From: Gemmatimonadota bacterium
GTDB taxonomy: Bacteria; Gemmatimonadota; Gemmatimonadetes; Gemmatimonadales; GWC2-71-9
Assembly: GCA_040388535.1 (NCBI GenBank)
Contig: JAZKBR010000008.1
Location: forward strand, 1 to 64,000
Direction: 5' to 3'
DNA: 64,000 nucleotides
The notes beneath the pieces are model-generated. The model was not told the DNA's origin and made no database searches. It saw nothing but the letters and a program-made list of their open reading frames with translations. Numbering within the stretch: position 1 is the stretch's first letter; each line of letters begins with the position of its first letter. The translations under genes and the position numbers were made by a program. Positions 1-55,451 of this stretch are shown here, piece after piece.

Positions 1-122
1 GATGACAGATGACAGATGACAGATGACAGATGACAGATGACAGATGACAGATGACGAGTCATTGATGGTCATCCAGGGATAGCGATCGCCGATCGATCAT
101 CTGTCATCTGTCATCCGTCATC
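1..122. repeat. Inverted heptamer repeat: (GATGACA)n facing (CATCTGT)n
   Basis: Bases 1-49 are seven perfect copies of GATGACA, followed by one GATGACG. After about 41 bp of unique sequence, bases 98-122 carry CATCTGT, CATCTGT, CATCCGT and CATC, the reverse complement of the same unit. The two arms could fold into a long hairpin upstream of etfB. The left edge is cut by the window, so the array may be longer. Confidence 0.95.
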
Positions 123-14193: not shown

Positions 14194-14211
14194 ACCGGAT
14201 AAAGCTAATCG

Positions 14212-14281
14212 GGTGATGGGTGATGGGTGATGGGGAAGGGGGAAGGGGGAAGGGGGAAGGGGGAGCGGGGAGGAGGGGAGT
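14212..14281. repeat. GGTGATG and GGGGAAG heptamer arrays
   Basis: Three GGTGATG-type units are followed by four GGGGAAG units and a degenerate GGGGAGC/GGGGAGG tail. The array lies between the stop codon of the SARP gene (14283-14285) and the htpX riboswitch. It therefore abuts the 3' end of the SARP gene. Confidence 0.88.
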
Positions 14282-43571: not shown

Positions 43572-44465
43572 GTGAGCAGGGAGGGGCAGACGTTTGCCGG
43601 CGGTTCGGCGCTGGCGCGCTGGGCGAGCTTCGTCAAGCTGCCGCACACGCTCTTCGCGTTGCCTTTCGCGCTGGTCGGTGTGCTCGCGGCGTCGCAGGTA
43701 GCTACCATCACGGCGCCGGTGGTGCTCTGGGTCGTGGTCGCCTTCTCAGCTGCCCGCTTCGCGGCGATGGGATTCAACCGCATTGTCGATCGGCGATTCG
43801 ATCACGAAAATCCGCGCACTCGCGCCCGCGAGATACCGGCAGGGAGCATCAGCGTGGCTCAGGCCTCGATCGCCGTGGCTGCGGCGGCAGCGCTCTTCGT
43901 CTTCGCCGCATGGCAGCTCAATCCGCTCTGCTTTGTACTCGCTCCGGTGGCCCTCTGCTGGGTGCTCTGTTACAGCTATGCCAAGCGGTTCACCCACTGG
44001 CCGCACCTCTGGCTCGGGCTGTCGCTCGCGATCGCCCCGGTGGGTGGCTGGCTCGCCGTGGCGGGCGCGTGGAGTGAGCCGTGGTGGCTCCTCGCGCTGA
44101 TCACGATCGCGGTGATGACCTGGGTGGCCGGCTTCGACATCTTCTATGCCCTCCCCGACGAAGGGTTCGACCGCGACCAGGGGCTGCGCAGTGCCGTGGT
44201 GCGGCTCGGCGTCCCGCGCGCGATCTTCCTTGCCAAGCTTCTCCACGGGATCACGATCCCCGCGCTCGGCATCTTCGGCTGGTTTGCCGGGTTCGGGATC
44301 TGGTACTTCGTCGGCGTCATCGTCGCCGCCGGCATCCTGGCGTGGGAGCATCAGCTGGTGAAGCCGGATGACCTGTCGAATCTCGACGCCGCGTTCTTCA
44401 CGATGAACGGAGTGATGAGTCTTACCGTCTTCGGGTTTGCGCTTGTTGACGTACTGACACGATGA
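43557..44465 (+). CDS. UbiA-family prenyltransferase (menaquinone pathway, MqnP-like)
   Basis: Integral membrane prenyltransferase, 302 residues with about eight to nine helices. Both Asp-rich motifs are visible: NRIVDRRFD (about residues 78-86) and FDIFYALPDEGFDRDQGLRS. MqnP acts with UbiD/UbiX-type enzymes in the futalosine route. The start is uncertain: ATG 43557 lies in the heptamer repeat, and GTG 43572 would remove five residues and is equally possible. The stop again lies in the first unit of a heptamer array. Confidence 0.9.
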   Translation: MDDGSVSREGQTFAGGSALARWASFVKLPHTLFALPFALVGVLAASQVATITAPVVLWVVVAFSAARFAAMGFNRIVDRRFDHENPRTRAREIPAGSISVAQASIAVAAAAALFVFAAWQLNPLCFVLAPVALCWVLCYSYAKRFTHWPHLWLGLSLAIAPVGGWLAVAGAWSEPWWLLALITIAVMTWVAGFDIFYALPDEGFDRDQGLRSAVVRLGVPRAIFLAKLLHGITIPALGIFGWFAGFGIWYFVGVIVAAGILAWEHQLVKPDDLSNLDAAFFTMNGVMSLTVFGFALVDVLTR

Positions 44466-44600
44466 CAGATGACAGATGACTGATGACTGATGACAGATGA
44501 CTGATGACTGAGCATGGATGCTGGCACATCCGCCATCCACGTTTCGTCTCGGCCCAATATCCGTCATCCGTCATCTGTCATCCGTCATCCATCATCCTCC
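44461..44600. repeat. Inverted heptamer arrays between ubiA- and ubiX-like genes
   Basis: The left arm (44461-44512) is about seven units of GATGACA/GATGACT, starting inside the ubiA stop TGA (44463-44465). About 46 bp later the right arm (44559-44600) has six ATCCGTC-type units in opposite orientation, ending 11 bp before the ubiX ATG. The arms could pair into a hairpin of about 40 bp. Confidence 0.93.
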
Positions 44601-50387: not shown

Positions 50388-51122
50388 ATGATTCGAAGAC
50401 TCCTCACGGTAGCTGTCGCGCTGGTCGCCGTGACCGCACCTCTCCTCTCCCAGACGACCGGTCCGGTCGTCCCAGTCAGTGATTTCGGGCCACGCCCCGG
50501 TCTCACCTTTGGCGGCAGTGGCATCTCGACCGACGCAGTGATGGCCAATTCCGCGGCCAATCAGGTCGCGCTCGGCGGAGCCCACCTGTTTCTCTCGGCC
50601 ACGCCGCGTTTCGCCGACCCCGCGTTGACCAATGACGGCGCCGGGCGCTTCTTCGCGCTCGCCGGAACGGACCTCAATGCACCGAGCCCGGTGGACCCGT
50701 ATGCGATGTGGAATTTCGATTTCGCGATCGTGGGTGACAACGTGAACGCGTGGAACTACCGCCTGTACTACGACTTCAATCCGGCCGTCGGCAACTTCGG
50801 CGATTACGGCTACGTCGCCGTGACCCCGACGCAGGACTCGTGGAACCTCGGGATGAATTTCCTCACGGTCTCGCTGGCCGGGATTGTGGTCCCGCCCACG
50901 TTCGCAGCGTTCAATCCGAATGTCGCGGGCGAGTATGGCTTCGCGCTGGTCGCGTTCAACGGCAGCCAGGTCGAAATGGGCCGGGCCGCGATTCTCGTGA
51001 ACACTGCGTTGCCGGGCGGTCCTCAGGATGTCGTGCCGGAGCCCGCCACGATGGGGCTGTTGGCGACTGGCCTGGTTGGCATGGCCGCCGCGCGCCGCCG
51101 GAAGAAGATCACCCGGAGCTGA
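50388..51122 (+). CDS. PEP-CTERM sorting-signal protein, copy 1
   Basis: A 244-residue surface or secreted protein. N-terminal signal peptide MIRRLLTVAVALVAVTAPLLS; a single beta-rich domain with YDFNPAVGNFGDYGYVAV and FNPNVAGEYGFALVAFNGSQ. The tripartite PEP-CTERM ends it: VPEPATMGLLATGLVGMAAA, then RRRKK. Such tails are cut by an exosortase, which is not in this window. The adjacent gene is a near copy. Function of the domain unknown; a surface or matrix structural role is family inference. Confidence 0.9.
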   Translation: MIRRLLTVAVALVAVTAPLLSQTTGPVVPVSDFGPRPGLTFGGSGISTDAVMANSAANQVALGGAHLFLSATPRFADPALTNDGAGRFFALAGTDLNAPSPVDPYAMWNFDFAIVGDNVNAWNYRLYYDFNPAVGNFGDYGYVAVTPTQDSWNLGMNFLTVSLAGIVVPPTFAAFNPNVAGEYGFALVAFNGSQVEMGRAAILVNTALPGGPQDVVPEPATMGLLATGLVGMAAARRRKKITRS

Positions 51123-51303: not shown

Positions 51304-52029
51304 ATGCACCGAAAACTGTTTCTCGCTGCCGCAGCGGCGATCGCTGTTGCTGCCGCCCCGCTCACCGCACAGACGACATCTCCCGTGGTTCCGTTGAGCG
51401 ACTTCGGCCCCCGACCCGGCCTCACCTTCGGTGGCAGTGGCATCTCGACTGATGCAGTCGAGGCCAACTCAGTGGCCAATCAGGTCGCACTGGGCGGCAC
51501 GCACCTGTTTCTGTCCGCAACGCCTCGGTTCGCCGATCCCGCCCTTGGGAACGACGGCGCGGGCACCTTCTTCGCCCAGGCCGGCACCGATCTGAATCCG
51601 CCGAGCCCGCTCGATCCCTACGCGCTCTGGAACTTCGATTTCGCGATCGTCGGTGAGAATGTCGAATCTTGGAACTACCGGCTGTACTACGACTTCAACC
51701 CCGCAGCCGGCAATTTCGGCGACTATGGCTACGTGGCGGTCACTCCGACCCAGGACTCCTGGAACCTCGGGATGAACTTCCTCGGAACCGCCATCGCCGG
51801 CATTGTGGTGCCGCCGACCTTCGCCGCGTTCAACCCGAACGCCGCGGGCGAGTATGGCTTCGCCCTGGTCGCATTCAATGGCAGCCAGGAGGAAGTGGGT
51901 CGCACAGCGATTCTCGTCAACACCGCCGCGACCGACGTGGTGCCCGAGCCGGCGAGCATGTCGCTGATGGCCATGGGTCTGGTCGGGATGGCCGCGGCGC
52001 GCCGCCGGAAGAAGGCCGCCCGCAGCTAG
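51304..52029 (+). CDS. PEP-CTERM sorting-signal protein, copy 2
   Basis: A 241-residue paralogue of the preceding gene, by eye about four-fifths identical, with the same order: signal peptide (MHRKLFLAAAAAIAVAAAPLTAQ), domain with SDFGPRPGLTFGGSGISTDA near its start, and the tail VPEPASMSLMAMGLVGMAAA plus RRRKK. GAGG lies 6-7 nt before the ATG. It has its own 126-bp spacer after the stem-loop. The last 4 bp overlap the stop of the convergent GIY-YIG gene, both stops sharing CTAG. Confidence 0.9.
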   Translation: MHRKLFLAAAAAIAVAAAPLTAQTTSPVVPLSDFGPRPGLTFGGSGISTDAVEANSVANQVALGGTHLFLSATPRFADPALGNDGAGTFFAQAGTDLNPPSPLDPYALWNFDFAIVGENVESWNYRLYYDFNPAAGNFGDYGYVAVTPTQDSWNLGMNFLGTAIAGIVVPPTFAAFNPNAAGEYGFALVAFNGSQEEVGRTAILVNTAATDVVPEPASMSLMAMGLVGMAAARRRKKAARS

Positions 52030-53114
52030 CTCCACGCCTCGAGCGGCTGGGTCCGGCGCCACGCATCGGGCCGGGTCCGGAACCAGCTCATCACCAGCAG
52101 CCGCTGGTGCAGTCGCTCCGCATCGACCCGTTCCCTGGGCGGTGCGGGGCGATTGCGTTCGGTCCGTACCACGGCCTCGAATGCTTCCCGCTCGATCGGA
52201 GAAACCGGGTCGGGATAGCAGGCGCGCACCTCGCCCCCGATGATGATGTACGCGCGCGCATCGCCGTTCGACCCCGGATCGCGGTAGACAAAGGTGAGCA
52301 GTTCGAGGGCCGTGCGCGCTCGGGTCGTCGCGGCGAGCAACCATTCGAGTGACTCGAATCGTTCACGCCAGCGGAGTGCTCCCTCGAAATCACCCGCATC
52401 GCTCCGCGTCGTCATCTCGGTGATGACCCGATCGACGGGTCGCACGCTGCGCCCGTCGCAGAACGCCGCCGCAATTTCAGCCTGCTCCCGATACGTCGAC
52501 TCTACCACGAGTCCCGCGCATGGTCCGAGGCAGGTGCGGAACTCGAATCGCGGGCAAGCGGCCCGCCTGGGCTCTGCGAAGAGGTCGCCCTGTTCGGCGT
52601 ACAGCATTGGCATGTCGGCGCGACAGTCGCGCAGGCCGAGGAGGTCGCTGAGAATCCGGGCCGCCTGTTGCGCGCGCCCCCGGGAGGGAATCGGTCCGTA
52701 TACTCGACCGGGGTGCCGTTCTGGCGAGGTGGTGGGGAGCAGGCGCGGGGCGGGCTCGTCGGTCAGCACAAGGAAGCCGTACTGCTTCGAGCGATTCATC
52801 GCGACGTTGAAGCTGGGTCGATGCTTGCGAATCAACTTCAGTTCGTTGAGTGCTGCAGCGAATTCACTTGGAGCGTAGTCGAAGACGATGTCGCTGGCCG
52901 CGTGCAGAATGCGCGCAGCTTTGTCGTGGGGATATTCGGCCCGGAAATAGGAGAGCAGTCGGGTCCGCAGCTGCTTCGCCTTGCCCACGTAGAGCACTCG
53001 CCCGGAGGCGTCGAGCATCCGGTAGGTGCCGGGTCGATCCTCGGCCAGCCGCCGGACCCGGAGGCGCAACGCCTCGAGGTCGGCAGCAGGGAGGGCGAGG
53101 GCGAGGGAGGCCAT
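52026..53114 (-). CDS. GIY-YIG nuclease, UvrC N-terminal-half-like protein
   Basis: A 362-residue protein matching the first part of UvrC. The GIY-YIG domain is at about residues 28-105 (PGTYRMLDASGRVLYVGKAKQL, then ELKLIRKHRPSFNVAM). It is followed by the UvrC cysteine cluster (RDCRADM, ACPRFEFRTCLGPCAG) and a UVR-like helix pair (DFEGALRWRERFESLEWLL). The RNase H-like 5' nuclease and helix-hairpin-helix domains of UvrC are absent, as in Cho-type proteins. ATG 53114 is chosen; the frame upstream is only translated heptamer repeat. SD is weak. A role in nucleotide excision repair is likely. Confidence 0.85.
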   Translation of the reverse strand: MASLALALPAADLEALRLRVRRLAEDRPGTYRMLDASGRVLYVGKAKQLRTRLLSYFRAEYPHDKAARILHAASDIVFDYAPSEFAAALNELKLIRKHRPSFNVAMNRSKQYGFLVLTDEPAPRLLPTTSPERHPGRVYGPIPSRGRAQQAARILSDLLGLRDCRADMPMLYAEQGDLFAEPRRAACPRFEFRTCLGPCAGLVVESTYREQAEIAAAFCDGRSVRPVDRVITEMTTRSDAGDFEGALRWRERFESLEWLLAATTRARTALELLTFVYRDPGSNGDARAYIIIGGEVRACYPDPVSPIEREAFEAVVRTERNRPAPPRERVDAERLHQRLLVMSWFRTRPDAWRRTQPLEAWS

Positions 53115-53126
53115 GCCGAAAGATAC

Positions 53127-53328
53127 GAGAAGGGAGAAGCGAGAAGGGAGAATCGAGAAGGGAGAAGGGAGAAGGGAGAAGGGAGAAGGGAGAAGGGAGG
53201 AGGGTCGAGAACGTGTCACCCTGAGCGTAGCGAGGGGGCGGAGTTCAGGCTCCCTCGACTCCGCCCGCTTCGCGGGCTGCGCTCAGGATGACAACCCCTT
53301 CTCCCTTCTCCCTTCTCGCTTCTCGTCT
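53127..53328. repeat. GAGAAGG heptamer arms enclosing a REP-like palindrome
   Basis: Eleven units of GAGAAGG (53127-53203, some degenerate) face four units of CCTTCTC/GCTTCTC (53297-53324). Between them, GTCACCCTGAGCG (53215-53227) and CGCTCAGGATGAC (53280-53292) form the ends of a REP-like inverted repeat with nested GGGCGGAGT/ACTCCGCCC and CCCGC/GCGGG stems. The right arm lies 4 bp after the mutM stop. The whole is a palindrome-within-palindrome. Confidence 0.93.
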
Positions 53329-54153
53329 TCAGCTCTGGCACCGCCAGCAAAACACCGTCCCGCGCGCATCGATATCGTGGGTCGCGGCGAGGCGGGTCCC
53401 GCAGATCCGGCATGCCTCCCCTTCGCGGCCATAGACGAAGAGCTCAAGCTGGAAATTGCCCGGCTCACCGGTGCTGGTGACATAATCCCGGAACGAGGTC
53501 CCCTCGCTCGCGATGGCCGCGGCGAGAATACGCTGGACGTGGCCATGGAGGCTGCGAAGCTGGGCAACTGGCACCCGGCTGGCGGCCTTCGAGGGGTCGA
53601 TCCCCGCGGCGAAGAGGGCCTCGGTCGCATAGATGTTTCCGACGCCAACGACGACCTTCTGGTCCATCAGGACTTTCTTGATCGCCGCGCGGGATTTCCC
53701 GAGCCGCTGAGCGAAGAGGTCGGCAGTGAACGCCGGGTCGAGCGGTTCCGGTCCGAGGCGGGCGTCGTAGGCGAGCCAGCCGGCTTCGTCGAGCCAGCGC
53801 AGCGTACCGATCCGGCGGACATCGCGATAAACCAGGGTCGCGCCGTCATCGAGGTCGCAACGGAGCACGGCATAGTGCAGTTCTTCGGCTGAGAGCGCTC
53901 GCTCGTATACCAGCAGTGACCCGGTCATCCCGGGCTGTACCGCGAGAATCTTCGTGTCGGTGCGCAGCAGCGCGTGCTTCGCGCGGCGATCGACCGCGGT
54001 GATCTGACGTCCAGGGAGTTCTCGCAGCAAGGTGTCCGCGCTCACGCCCTCGAGCACGTTGTCGTGCGACAGCGCGGCACTCACGATCCGTCGATCCACG
54101 AGTCGTGCCCGCAGCTGGCGGACGAGAGTCTCGACTTCAGGTAGTTCCGGCAT
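53329..54153 (-). CDS. mutM: Formamidopyrimidine-DNA glycosylase (Fpg)
   Basis: Base-excision repair glycosylase/AP lyase for oxidised purines (274 residues). The catalytic N-terminal proline and glutamate are in MPELPEVETL. Further signs are RRAKHALL, QPGMTGSLLV, VVVGVGNIYATEALF (H2TH region) and the C-terminal zinc finger (CRICGTRLAATH, FCWRCQS). ATG overlaps the purD stop as ATGA. The 3' end abuts a heptamer array. Next to the UvrC-like gene it forms a small DNA-repair neighbourhood. Confidence 0.96.
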   Translation of the reverse strand: MPELPEVETLVRQLRARLVDRRIVSAALSHDNVLEGVSADTLLRELPGRQITAVDRRAKHALLRTDTKILAVQPGMTGSLLVYERALSAEELHYAVLRCDLDDGATLVYRDVRRIGTLRWLDEAGWLAYDARLGPEPLDPAFTADLFAQRLGKSRAAIKKVLMDQKVVVGVGNIYATEALFAAGIDPSKAASRVPVAQLRSLHGHVQRILAAAIASEGTSFRDYVTSTGEPGNFQLELFVYGREGEACRICGTRLAATHDIDARGTVFCWRCQS

Positions 54154-55451
54154 CAGCCCTCCCTTCTCTCTTCTCCCTTCTCCCTTCTCGCAGCTTCCCG
54201 CCACCCAATGTCCCCGCGAAACTGCATCCCCTCGAAACGAATGCTCTCGGCGGCGCGCCGACTGGCGGACTGCGCCTCGGCGAACGTCGCGGCGACAGCG
54301 GTCACTGCGAAGACGCGCCCGCCGTTCGTTACGAGGGTGCCGTCCTCCCGGGAGGCCGTGCCCGCGTGGTAGACGGTGACGCCCTCGGCGAAGCGCTCGG
54401 GGAGCGTGATCGGGTCACCCTTTCGTGGCGCATCGGGGTAGCCTGCCGCCGCAACGACCGTGGTCACTGCGGCCGCGTCACGCAGGGTAAGCTCGGGCAG
54501 TGCTGCACCGCGAGCCGCGGCGTCGAGCAGCGCAGTCAGACCGGAGCCAACCAGCGGCAGGACTACCTCGGTCTCGGGATCGCCGAGTCGGCAATTGAAT
54601 TCCACCACGTTCGGTGTGCCGTCGGGATGGAGCATCAACCCGGCATAGAGCACCCCGCAGAATGGCGCACCGCGTCGTTCGAGTTCGGCGAGCGCGGGGA
54701 GCAGAACCTCTCGCTCCACGCGCGCGAGCAGGGCAGGGGAAGTAAGCGCGACCGGAGCGTACGCGCCCATCCCGCCGGTGTTGGGGCCGAGATCGCCTTC
54801 GCCGAGCCGCTTGTGGTCCTGGGCCGGCGGCAGGATGCGCACTTCGCGGCCGTTGGTGACGGCCAGCACCGAAAGCTCTTCTCCGACCAGAAACGACTCG
54901 ATCACGACGACATCGCCCGCGGCGCCGAATTGATGCTCACCCAGCATTGACCTCACCGTGTGAGCGGCTTCGTCGCGGGTCTCGCAGACGACGGCGCCCT
55001 TGCCGGCCGCGAGGCCTGATGCCTTCACGACCAGCGGCTCGGCATGCGTGTCGATGTACGCGAGGGCGGCAGCCAGATCGGTGAAGGTGGCGCTCGCCGC
55101 GGTGGGAATCCCGGCGGCCGCCATCACATCCTTCGCGAAGGCCTTCGACGCCTCTATTTGTGCTGCGGCGGCCCCCGGCCCGAACACGGCGATCCCCGCC
55201 GTGCGCAGCCGATCGGCGAGTCCGAGTGCCAGCGGGACTTCGGGACCGACGACGACGAGGTCGATCGAGAGGAACGCGGCGGCATCGGTGAGGCGGTCGA
55301 GATCATCGGCCGCGATCGGCAGGTTGGTAGCCAGCTGGGCCGTTCCCGGGTTGCCCGGGGCGACGTAGATCAGGTGGGACGGATCATCGGCAGCGAGGGC
55401 GTGGACGAGTGCGTGTTCGCGGCCCCCGCCGCCGACGATGAGCAACTTCAC
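54153..55451 (-). CDS. purD: Phosphoribosylamine-glycine ligase
   Basis: ATP-grasp enzyme of purine synthesis (432 residues): 5-phosphoribosylamine + glycine to GAR. Motifs: VGGGGREHAL at the start, VVKASGLAAGKGAVV, HKRLGEGDLGPNTGGMGAYAP and VVEFNCRLGDPETEVVLPLV. Its normal end should be near FRGDIGWREAA; beyond this the frame runs through four heptamer units and adds a charged tail (RREKGEERREG) up to the stop that overlaps mutM. The GTG start overlaps the M48 peptidase stop. Confidence 0.96.
   Translation of the reverse strand: MKLLIVGGGGREHALVHALAADDPSHLIYVAPGNPGTAQLATNLPIAADDLDRLTDAAAFLSIDLVVVGPEVPLALGLADRLRTAGIAVFGPGAAAAQIEASKAFAKDVMAAAGIPTAASATFTDLAAALAYIDTHAEPLVVKASGLAAGKGAVVCETRDEAAHTVRSMLGEHQFGAAGDVVVIESFLVGEELSVLAVTNGREVRILPPAQDHKRLGEGDLGPNTGGMGAYAPVALTSPALLARVEREVLLPALAELERRGAPFCGVLYAGLMLHPDGTPNVVEFNCRLGDPETEVVLPLVGSGLTALLDAAARGAALPELTLRDAAAVTTVVAAAGYPDAPRKGDPITLPERFAEGVTVYHAGTASREDGTLVTNGGRVFAVTAVAATFAEAQSASRRAAESIRFEGMQFRGDIGWREAARREKGEERREG
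54162..54189. repeat. Translated CCTTCTC heptamer array at the purD 3' end
   Basis: Four units (CCTTCTC, TCTTCTC, CCTTCTC, CCTTCTC as read on the plus strand) lie within the last codons of purD, just before the overlapping mutM start. Confidence 0.9.

Follow-up and report, generated by a model that had tools for sequence, protein, structure and literature searches.

Heptamers are over-represented as long tandem repeats in many bacteria. Inverted pairs of such arrays have been described from Xanthomonas, in which GGGAATC repeats form 70-75 pairs per genome; compared with control repeats, the G4-forming heptamer repeats there are more frequently the place where a transcript begins or ends (PMC4692102). 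Within the open-access literature, we regard the Xanthomonas pairs as the closest precedent for the element reported here. Both are intergenic heptamer arrays in facing pairs with the G-rich strand first. The Xanthomonas repeats likewise occupy the sense strand at most 50 bp from stop codons, some of them overlapping these, and are under-represented between divergent genes, and their prominent repeats are likewise not common to related species (PMC4692102). All of these traits of pairing, strand order, position after stop codons and depletion between divergent genes were found in the genome studied here. Abundant intergenic heptamer arrays are likewise known from Beggiatoaceae, but their TAACTGA repeats are direct, stand mainly upstream of start codons and comprise one heptamer with a single inverted case (PMC4679880), whereas ours are paired, inverted and situated after stop codons.

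The palindrome between the arms resembles the REP/REPIN elements with their RAYT transposases (PMC3116915, PMC3733652), with which it shares two inverted REP-like halves, complementary stems and many dispersed intergenic copies. The large REP super-families are defined by a GTAG or CGTC tag, and CGTC-tagged REPs are likewise without a dedicated transposase (PMC3733652).

A nested inverted structure between mutM and a GIY-YIG gene

The window, i.e. the whole stretch of 64,000 nucleotides analysed from a Gemmatimonadota genome, harbours a nested inverted structure within 53127-53325, in which a heptamer array, a palindrome and a reverse-complement heptamer array follow each other between a GIY-YIG gene and mutM (Table 1). 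The description in the earlier note, a palindrome framed by eleven GAGAAGG and four CCTTCTC, is borne out with substitutions included. TRF returns period 7 and 11.1 copies of GAGAAGG with 90% matches for the left arm; for the right arm, which it delimits at 53296-53324, it gives the CCTTCTC class a copy number of 4.1 with 95% matches. 8 GAGAAGG and 3 CCTTCTC units are letter-perfect, while the remaining units carry substitutions.

Table 1. Features of the element and its neighbouring genes, with positions in the window.
Feature	Position	Strand	Basis or remark
Left arm: purine-rich array of the GAGAAGG class, ~11 units with substitutions	53127..53204	+	repeat finding
Spacer, non-repeated, left arm to palindrome	53205..53213	none	
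REPIN-like core, 80 bp: a pair of inverted REP-like halves with TGTCACCCTGAGCG and CGCTCAGGATGACA at the ends	53214..53293	+	many genome copies
Variable stem-loop within the right REP half (minus-strand sequence GCCCGCGAAGCGGGC)	53263..53277	-	varies among copies yet stays complementary
Right arm: pyrimidine-rich array of the CCTTCTC class, ~4 units, inverted relative to left arm	53296..53325	+	repeat finding, arm pairing
Downstream neighbour: gene for a UvrC/Cho-like endonuclease with a GIY-YIG domain	52026..53114	-	start codon 12 nt from left arm
Upstream neighbour: formamidopyrimidine-DNA glycosylase (mutM)	53329..54153	-	stop codon 3 nt from right arm

The arms pair with each other at 97% over 30 nt, and one long hairpin is predicted from each strand of the element. 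Its RNA folding energy is -122.9 kcal/mol, and comparison with dinucleotide shuffles gives z = -7.4 for both strands. The two flanking genes are co-directional. Intrinsic (Rho-independent) terminators combine a GC-rich hairpin with a T-run; at the element the hairpin is followed by a tail of CCTTCTC repeats, a U-tract past the pyrimidine arm is absent, and the terminator scan returned no site here. Rho utilisation by the C-rich arm was considered as well and thought unlikely, as in each transcript the pyrimidine arm comes last, after the purine arm with which it would be base-paired. Rfam yielded just eukaryotic microRNA models, matched trivially by the long hairpin and in every case far below the gathering score.

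The pattern is a real and recurrent gene-end hairpin of two layers, heptamer arms and palindrome, each of which also occurs alone. Elsewhere in the window, 50388-51122 and 51304-52029 encode adjacent, very similar PEP-CTERM-type proteins, which by eye represent a recent tandem duplication.

The palindrome and its relation to the arms and to Y1 transposases

The palindrome has several properties of REPs and REPINs. Two inverted REP units lie in one hairpin, and many extragenic copies of the short palindrome exist, those of our sample being intergenic. Genome-wide there are 145 occurrences of its end GTCAYCCTGAGCG, compared to 0 of the reversed control, and the end motif is present in 84 copies in the relative G001 and 57 copies in the relative G009. 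The stem varies yet remains complementary: halves of the same copy are paired at 95% in this genome and at 100% in G009 and G001, against 68-75% when halves are swapped. Unlike in the REP/REPIN-RAYT systems, the end reads TGTCA, the copies begin with TGTCAYCCTGAGCG and a GTAG or CGTC tag (as defined in PMC3733652) is absent, as is an association with Y1/RAYT genes. The same end motif was also found in Acidobacteriota, Hymenobacter, Clostridia MAGs and others, so that the palindrome is not specific to this lineage. A scan of the collection in which GAGAAGG had to precede the palindrome end likewise matched in many phyla; a heptamer array was nearby in just 2 of 80 loci, both of them different, which makes the single-heptamer pattern uninformative.

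For a wider comparison of arms and loops, 50 distinct two-armed loci were available, collected partly by similarity to the element and by heptamer patterns, such that proportions among them are approximate. Their loops contain the palindrome in 22 of 50 cases by the strict motif and in about 26 when variants are counted, the others holding terminator-like hairpins or unrelated sequence. The frequent presence of a REPIN-like palindrome in the loop is a difference from Xanthomonas: a nested palindrome is not reported in the accessible part of PMC4692102. Several palindrome-free loops form stable hairpins such as GGCCGACATC..GATGCCGGCC. This terminator-like hairpin is common to the loops at C8 211675-211722, L213, L219, L227 and L231, and its one occurrence in a 444 kb sample lies within a heptamer pair. 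The palindrome-free loops were also considered as one mobile family, which we rejected, since nearly all of them are unrelated.

The earlier note had suggested that arms and palindrome are a single composite element, perhaps moved by a RAYT-like transposase. The nested arrangement does recur: other copies of the palindrome have arms in mirror arrangement, often with another heptamer. In the unbiased sample, arrays are present in 5 of the 9 intergenic regions that contain a palindrome, compared with 15 of the 118 that do not (p = 0.005). However, the two layers are also found separately, and the arms vary among copies of one palindrome. Palindromes lack arms in the other 4 of 9 regions and at L147 (G009:C8:750001-770000), where eight REPIN-like palindromes occupy almost every intergenic space of 12 kb; their stems differ from copy to copy, each being complementary. 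Conversely, arms enclose no palindrome in about half of the loops and at the orthologous junction in the relative G004. Repeats that are readily taken for one mobile element can thus be two independent layers.

The proposed mover fares no better. Two Y1_Tnp genes do exist in the genome, as the search for a tnpA-REP gene suggested in the earlier note had envisaged, one matching IS200/IS605 above the cut-off and the other REP_Tyr_transpos, the REP-associated tyrosine transposases, below the curated cut-off; the latter match could be held in favour of a RAYT. Neither gene has a copy of the element's palindrome nearby. Both are flanked by different and unrelated palindromes: the Y1 genes at L058:1180-1900 and L057:1290-2030 carry families of their own, GGTGGTGCCGCGC..GCGCGGCACC and CGGCTTCAGCCGCG, which look like distinct REP systems, and copies of the GGTGGTGCCGCGC type were additionally seen at L051 and L019. 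Among the Y1 loci of relatives, 0 of 29 have the palindrome within 1.5 kb, and G009 (98% complete) has no Y1 match at all despite its 57 palindrome ends. A REPtron, in which a RAYT gene has copies of the REP in question at its borders, is accordingly absent from the 2 own and the 29 relatives' Y1 loci. In distant motif-rich genomes the palindrome lies within 1.5 kb of 6 of 30 RAYT-like loci, about the chance level given 41-228 motif copies per genome. We consider it highly improbable that arms and palindrome were moved as a unit by such a transposase; the palindrome would rather have arrived at heptamer hairpin sites as an independent repeat.

Words, polarity and position of the paired arrays

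Apart from the collected loci, our statistics are based on 444 kb of contiguous sequence (the window with its C8 neighbours, and C9); gene calls come from a simple script based on codon usage. This sequence contains 24 period-7 runs, compared to 0 in a Markov shuffle and at most 1 for each other period from 2 to 13, so the arrays are not due to chance; enrichment of tandem runs is restricted to period 7 and its multiples. The pattern GATGRNNGATGRNNGATGR has 445 matches in the genome and its reversed control 0; another control pattern also matches GAGAGAC arrays, and its counts serve for presence or absence only.

The arms of the 50 paired loci fall into the classes GATGAC/T, GAGACT, GAGAAG, GGGGAAG and GGGTGAT. 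From locus to locus the heptamer changes among GAGAAGG, GAGACTA, GATGACA, GGGTGAT and GGGGAAG, with GATGACA, GAGACTA and GAGAAGG the commonest classes. This contrasts with Xanthomonas in that a single genome uses several heptamer classes side by side and these differ by species, and in that none of the commonest classes is the G-quadruplex unit GGGANTN; many classes here, for instance GATGACA and GAGACTA, are not G4-forming (comparison with PMC4692102).

The correspondence between the arms of a locus is strong at the level of the class. Both arms share the heptamer class in 45 of 50 loci, while permutations gave a mean of 15 and a maximum of 29 in 10,000. The polarity is likewise strict, the purine arm coming first and the pyrimidine arm second in 46 of 46 informative pairs (46:0), and in 11 of 11 pairs (11:0) in G009 and G001. 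Arms of one locus show no extra likeness compared to class-matched arms of other loci (p = 0.135), and the lengths of left and right arms of paired loci are not correlated; fine-scale coevolution of the arms is therefore not supported. Locus-specific mirror copying was rejected on the same test: L004, L005 and one G009 locus look mirrored, but class-matched swaps align equally well.

Paired arrays are concentrated where genes end. Of 49, 25 occupy convergent-gene junctions, whereas just 19 of 127 intergenic regions in the background are of this kind (p = 3e-6). Divergent junctions are under-represented (3 of 49 against 29 of 127, p = 0.009); about 40%, this element included, lie at co-directional junctions. 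Of the 70 arms facing a stop codon, 66 start at most 25 nt away (the median distance is 1 nt) and 29 overlap the stop codon, while arms facing a start codon keep a minimum distance of 12 nt (median 44).

This position bears on the function of the structure. A transcript continuing past the stop codon would meet first a purine tract, then a strong hairpin and finally a pyrimidine tract. Owing to its symmetry the structure would read alike from both sides, as suits convergent genes. We interpret this as favouring a two-way transcript-end hairpin, the most likely function, by which polymerase may be stopped or slowed and mRNA 3' ends protected. The co-directional sites speak against it, as full termination would there cut off the downstream gene unless this has a promoter of its own. 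The lack of a U-tract and of a predicted terminator at the element, and the absence of extra likeness or length correlation between the arms of a locus, count against it as well.

A serious rival explains the arrays as mutational by-products without cellular function. Hairpin-prone intergenic DNA would acquire heptamer arrays via polymerase slippage, template switching would copy arm to arm, recombination would disperse favoured words, and selection would merely exclude arrays from genes, promoters and ribosome-binding sites. Taken whole, we think this less likely than not. The uncorrelated arm lengths agree with it, as do the arms filling the space between stop codons and the prevalence of heptamers among the longer repeats of many bacteria, for which an origin by slippage has been proposed (PMC4679880, PMC4692102). 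The strongest point against it is the strict purine-first polarity across unlike heptamers and species, which is unexpected from slippage alone; moreover, the enrichment between convergent genes requires selection or a transcription-linked process.

Turnover of the arrays in relatives

The same junctions in relatives differ in arms as well as in loops. Between mutM and the GIY-YIG gene, G006 lacks the element and the genes almost touch, G001 retains a short remnant, G004 has inverted arms of the GGAGAGA class around an 18-nt loop without the palindrome, and G009 has a partly duplicated palindrome with a right arm of the GAGAGAC class; in other genera of the family both genes are adjacent and the element is absent. 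Likewise, the junction at 44461-44597, in the window a GATGACA/GATGACT array with inverted partner, carries GAGACGA arms in G001 and nothing in G006. Each species has a dominant vocabulary of its own: GTGAGAC, GTAAGAG and GAGAGAC dominate in G009, GAGAGAC and GAGAGAG in G001, while no arrays were found in the 110 kb sampled from G006. Orthologous junctions that are empty or hold other heptamers and other loops show that the site is occupied repeatedly and that both layers turn over independently. One genus with many paired arrays of fixed polarity and position, and with sister species that have other words or empty sites, thus offers a natural experiment in which selection acting on transcript ends can be told apart from an origin by mutation.

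Such fast turnover, in which a site is empty in one species of the genus and occupied in another and heptamers differ by species, agrees with a mutational by-product. Another alternative is that the arrays are multivalent sites for a sequence-specific RNA- or DNA-binding protein; each heptamer would bind one copy, and the specificity of the protein would coevolve with the words of the species. Few words per species genome-wide, the constant 7-nt unit and the fixed strand polarity would agree with this, and CspB is reported to bind heptamer direct repeats with one protein per heptamer (cited in PMC4679880). Yet at least five heptamer classes occupy the same positions in one genome, the sampled part of G006 is devoid of arrays and a candidate protein was not identified, so we regard protein binding as quite improbable.

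The explanation we prefer is a gene-end hairpin with heptamer satellites and a two-way transcript-end role, in which the palindrome is an independent repeat. The arrays may behave as satellite DNA, altering by slippage and being homogenised within a genome through recombination or template switching across the hairpin, which would give each species its own words. They would persist where harmless or somewhat useful, i.e. just past stop codons, with convergent junctions as the preferred place. The restriction to period 7, the polarity, the class-matched arms, the position at stop codons, the convergent bias, the stable hairpins in several palindrome-free loops, the complementary variable stems of the REP halves, the independent occupancy in G001, G004, G006 and G009 and the transcript ends at comparable Xanthomonas repeats all argue for this explanation, which as a whole we judge about evenly balanced between right and wrong.

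A bolder version is rather unlikely in our estimate. Here the arrays would be two-way gene-end elements in which pairing and purine-first polarity are selected and the sequence is free, such that satellites swap wholesale between close species while the unit of 7, the polarity and the stop-codon site are kept. They would act as brakes in both directions, the purine-rich nascent RNA possibly favouring an RNA:DNA hybrid ahead of the hairpin, and their loops would provide safe landing sites for mobile palindromes.

Heptamer arrays also coincide with contig ends. Contig C8 starts within a GATGACA array (window 1-122) with its inverted partner at 97-122, contig C9 terminates within a GAGAAGG array (L015), and contig C1 of G001 opens in a 127-bp GAGAGAC array; assemblies seem to be broken by them. 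At 14211-14272 of the window, GGGTGAT continues into GGGGAAG, with a partner that is not clear. Finally, a CTCCCTT array at 54159-54189 encodes the C-terminal residues REKGEERREG of the purD product, beyond the end of the Pfam domain, and stops at the purD stop codon. Arrays can hence furnish protein C-termini, and probably stop codons too.
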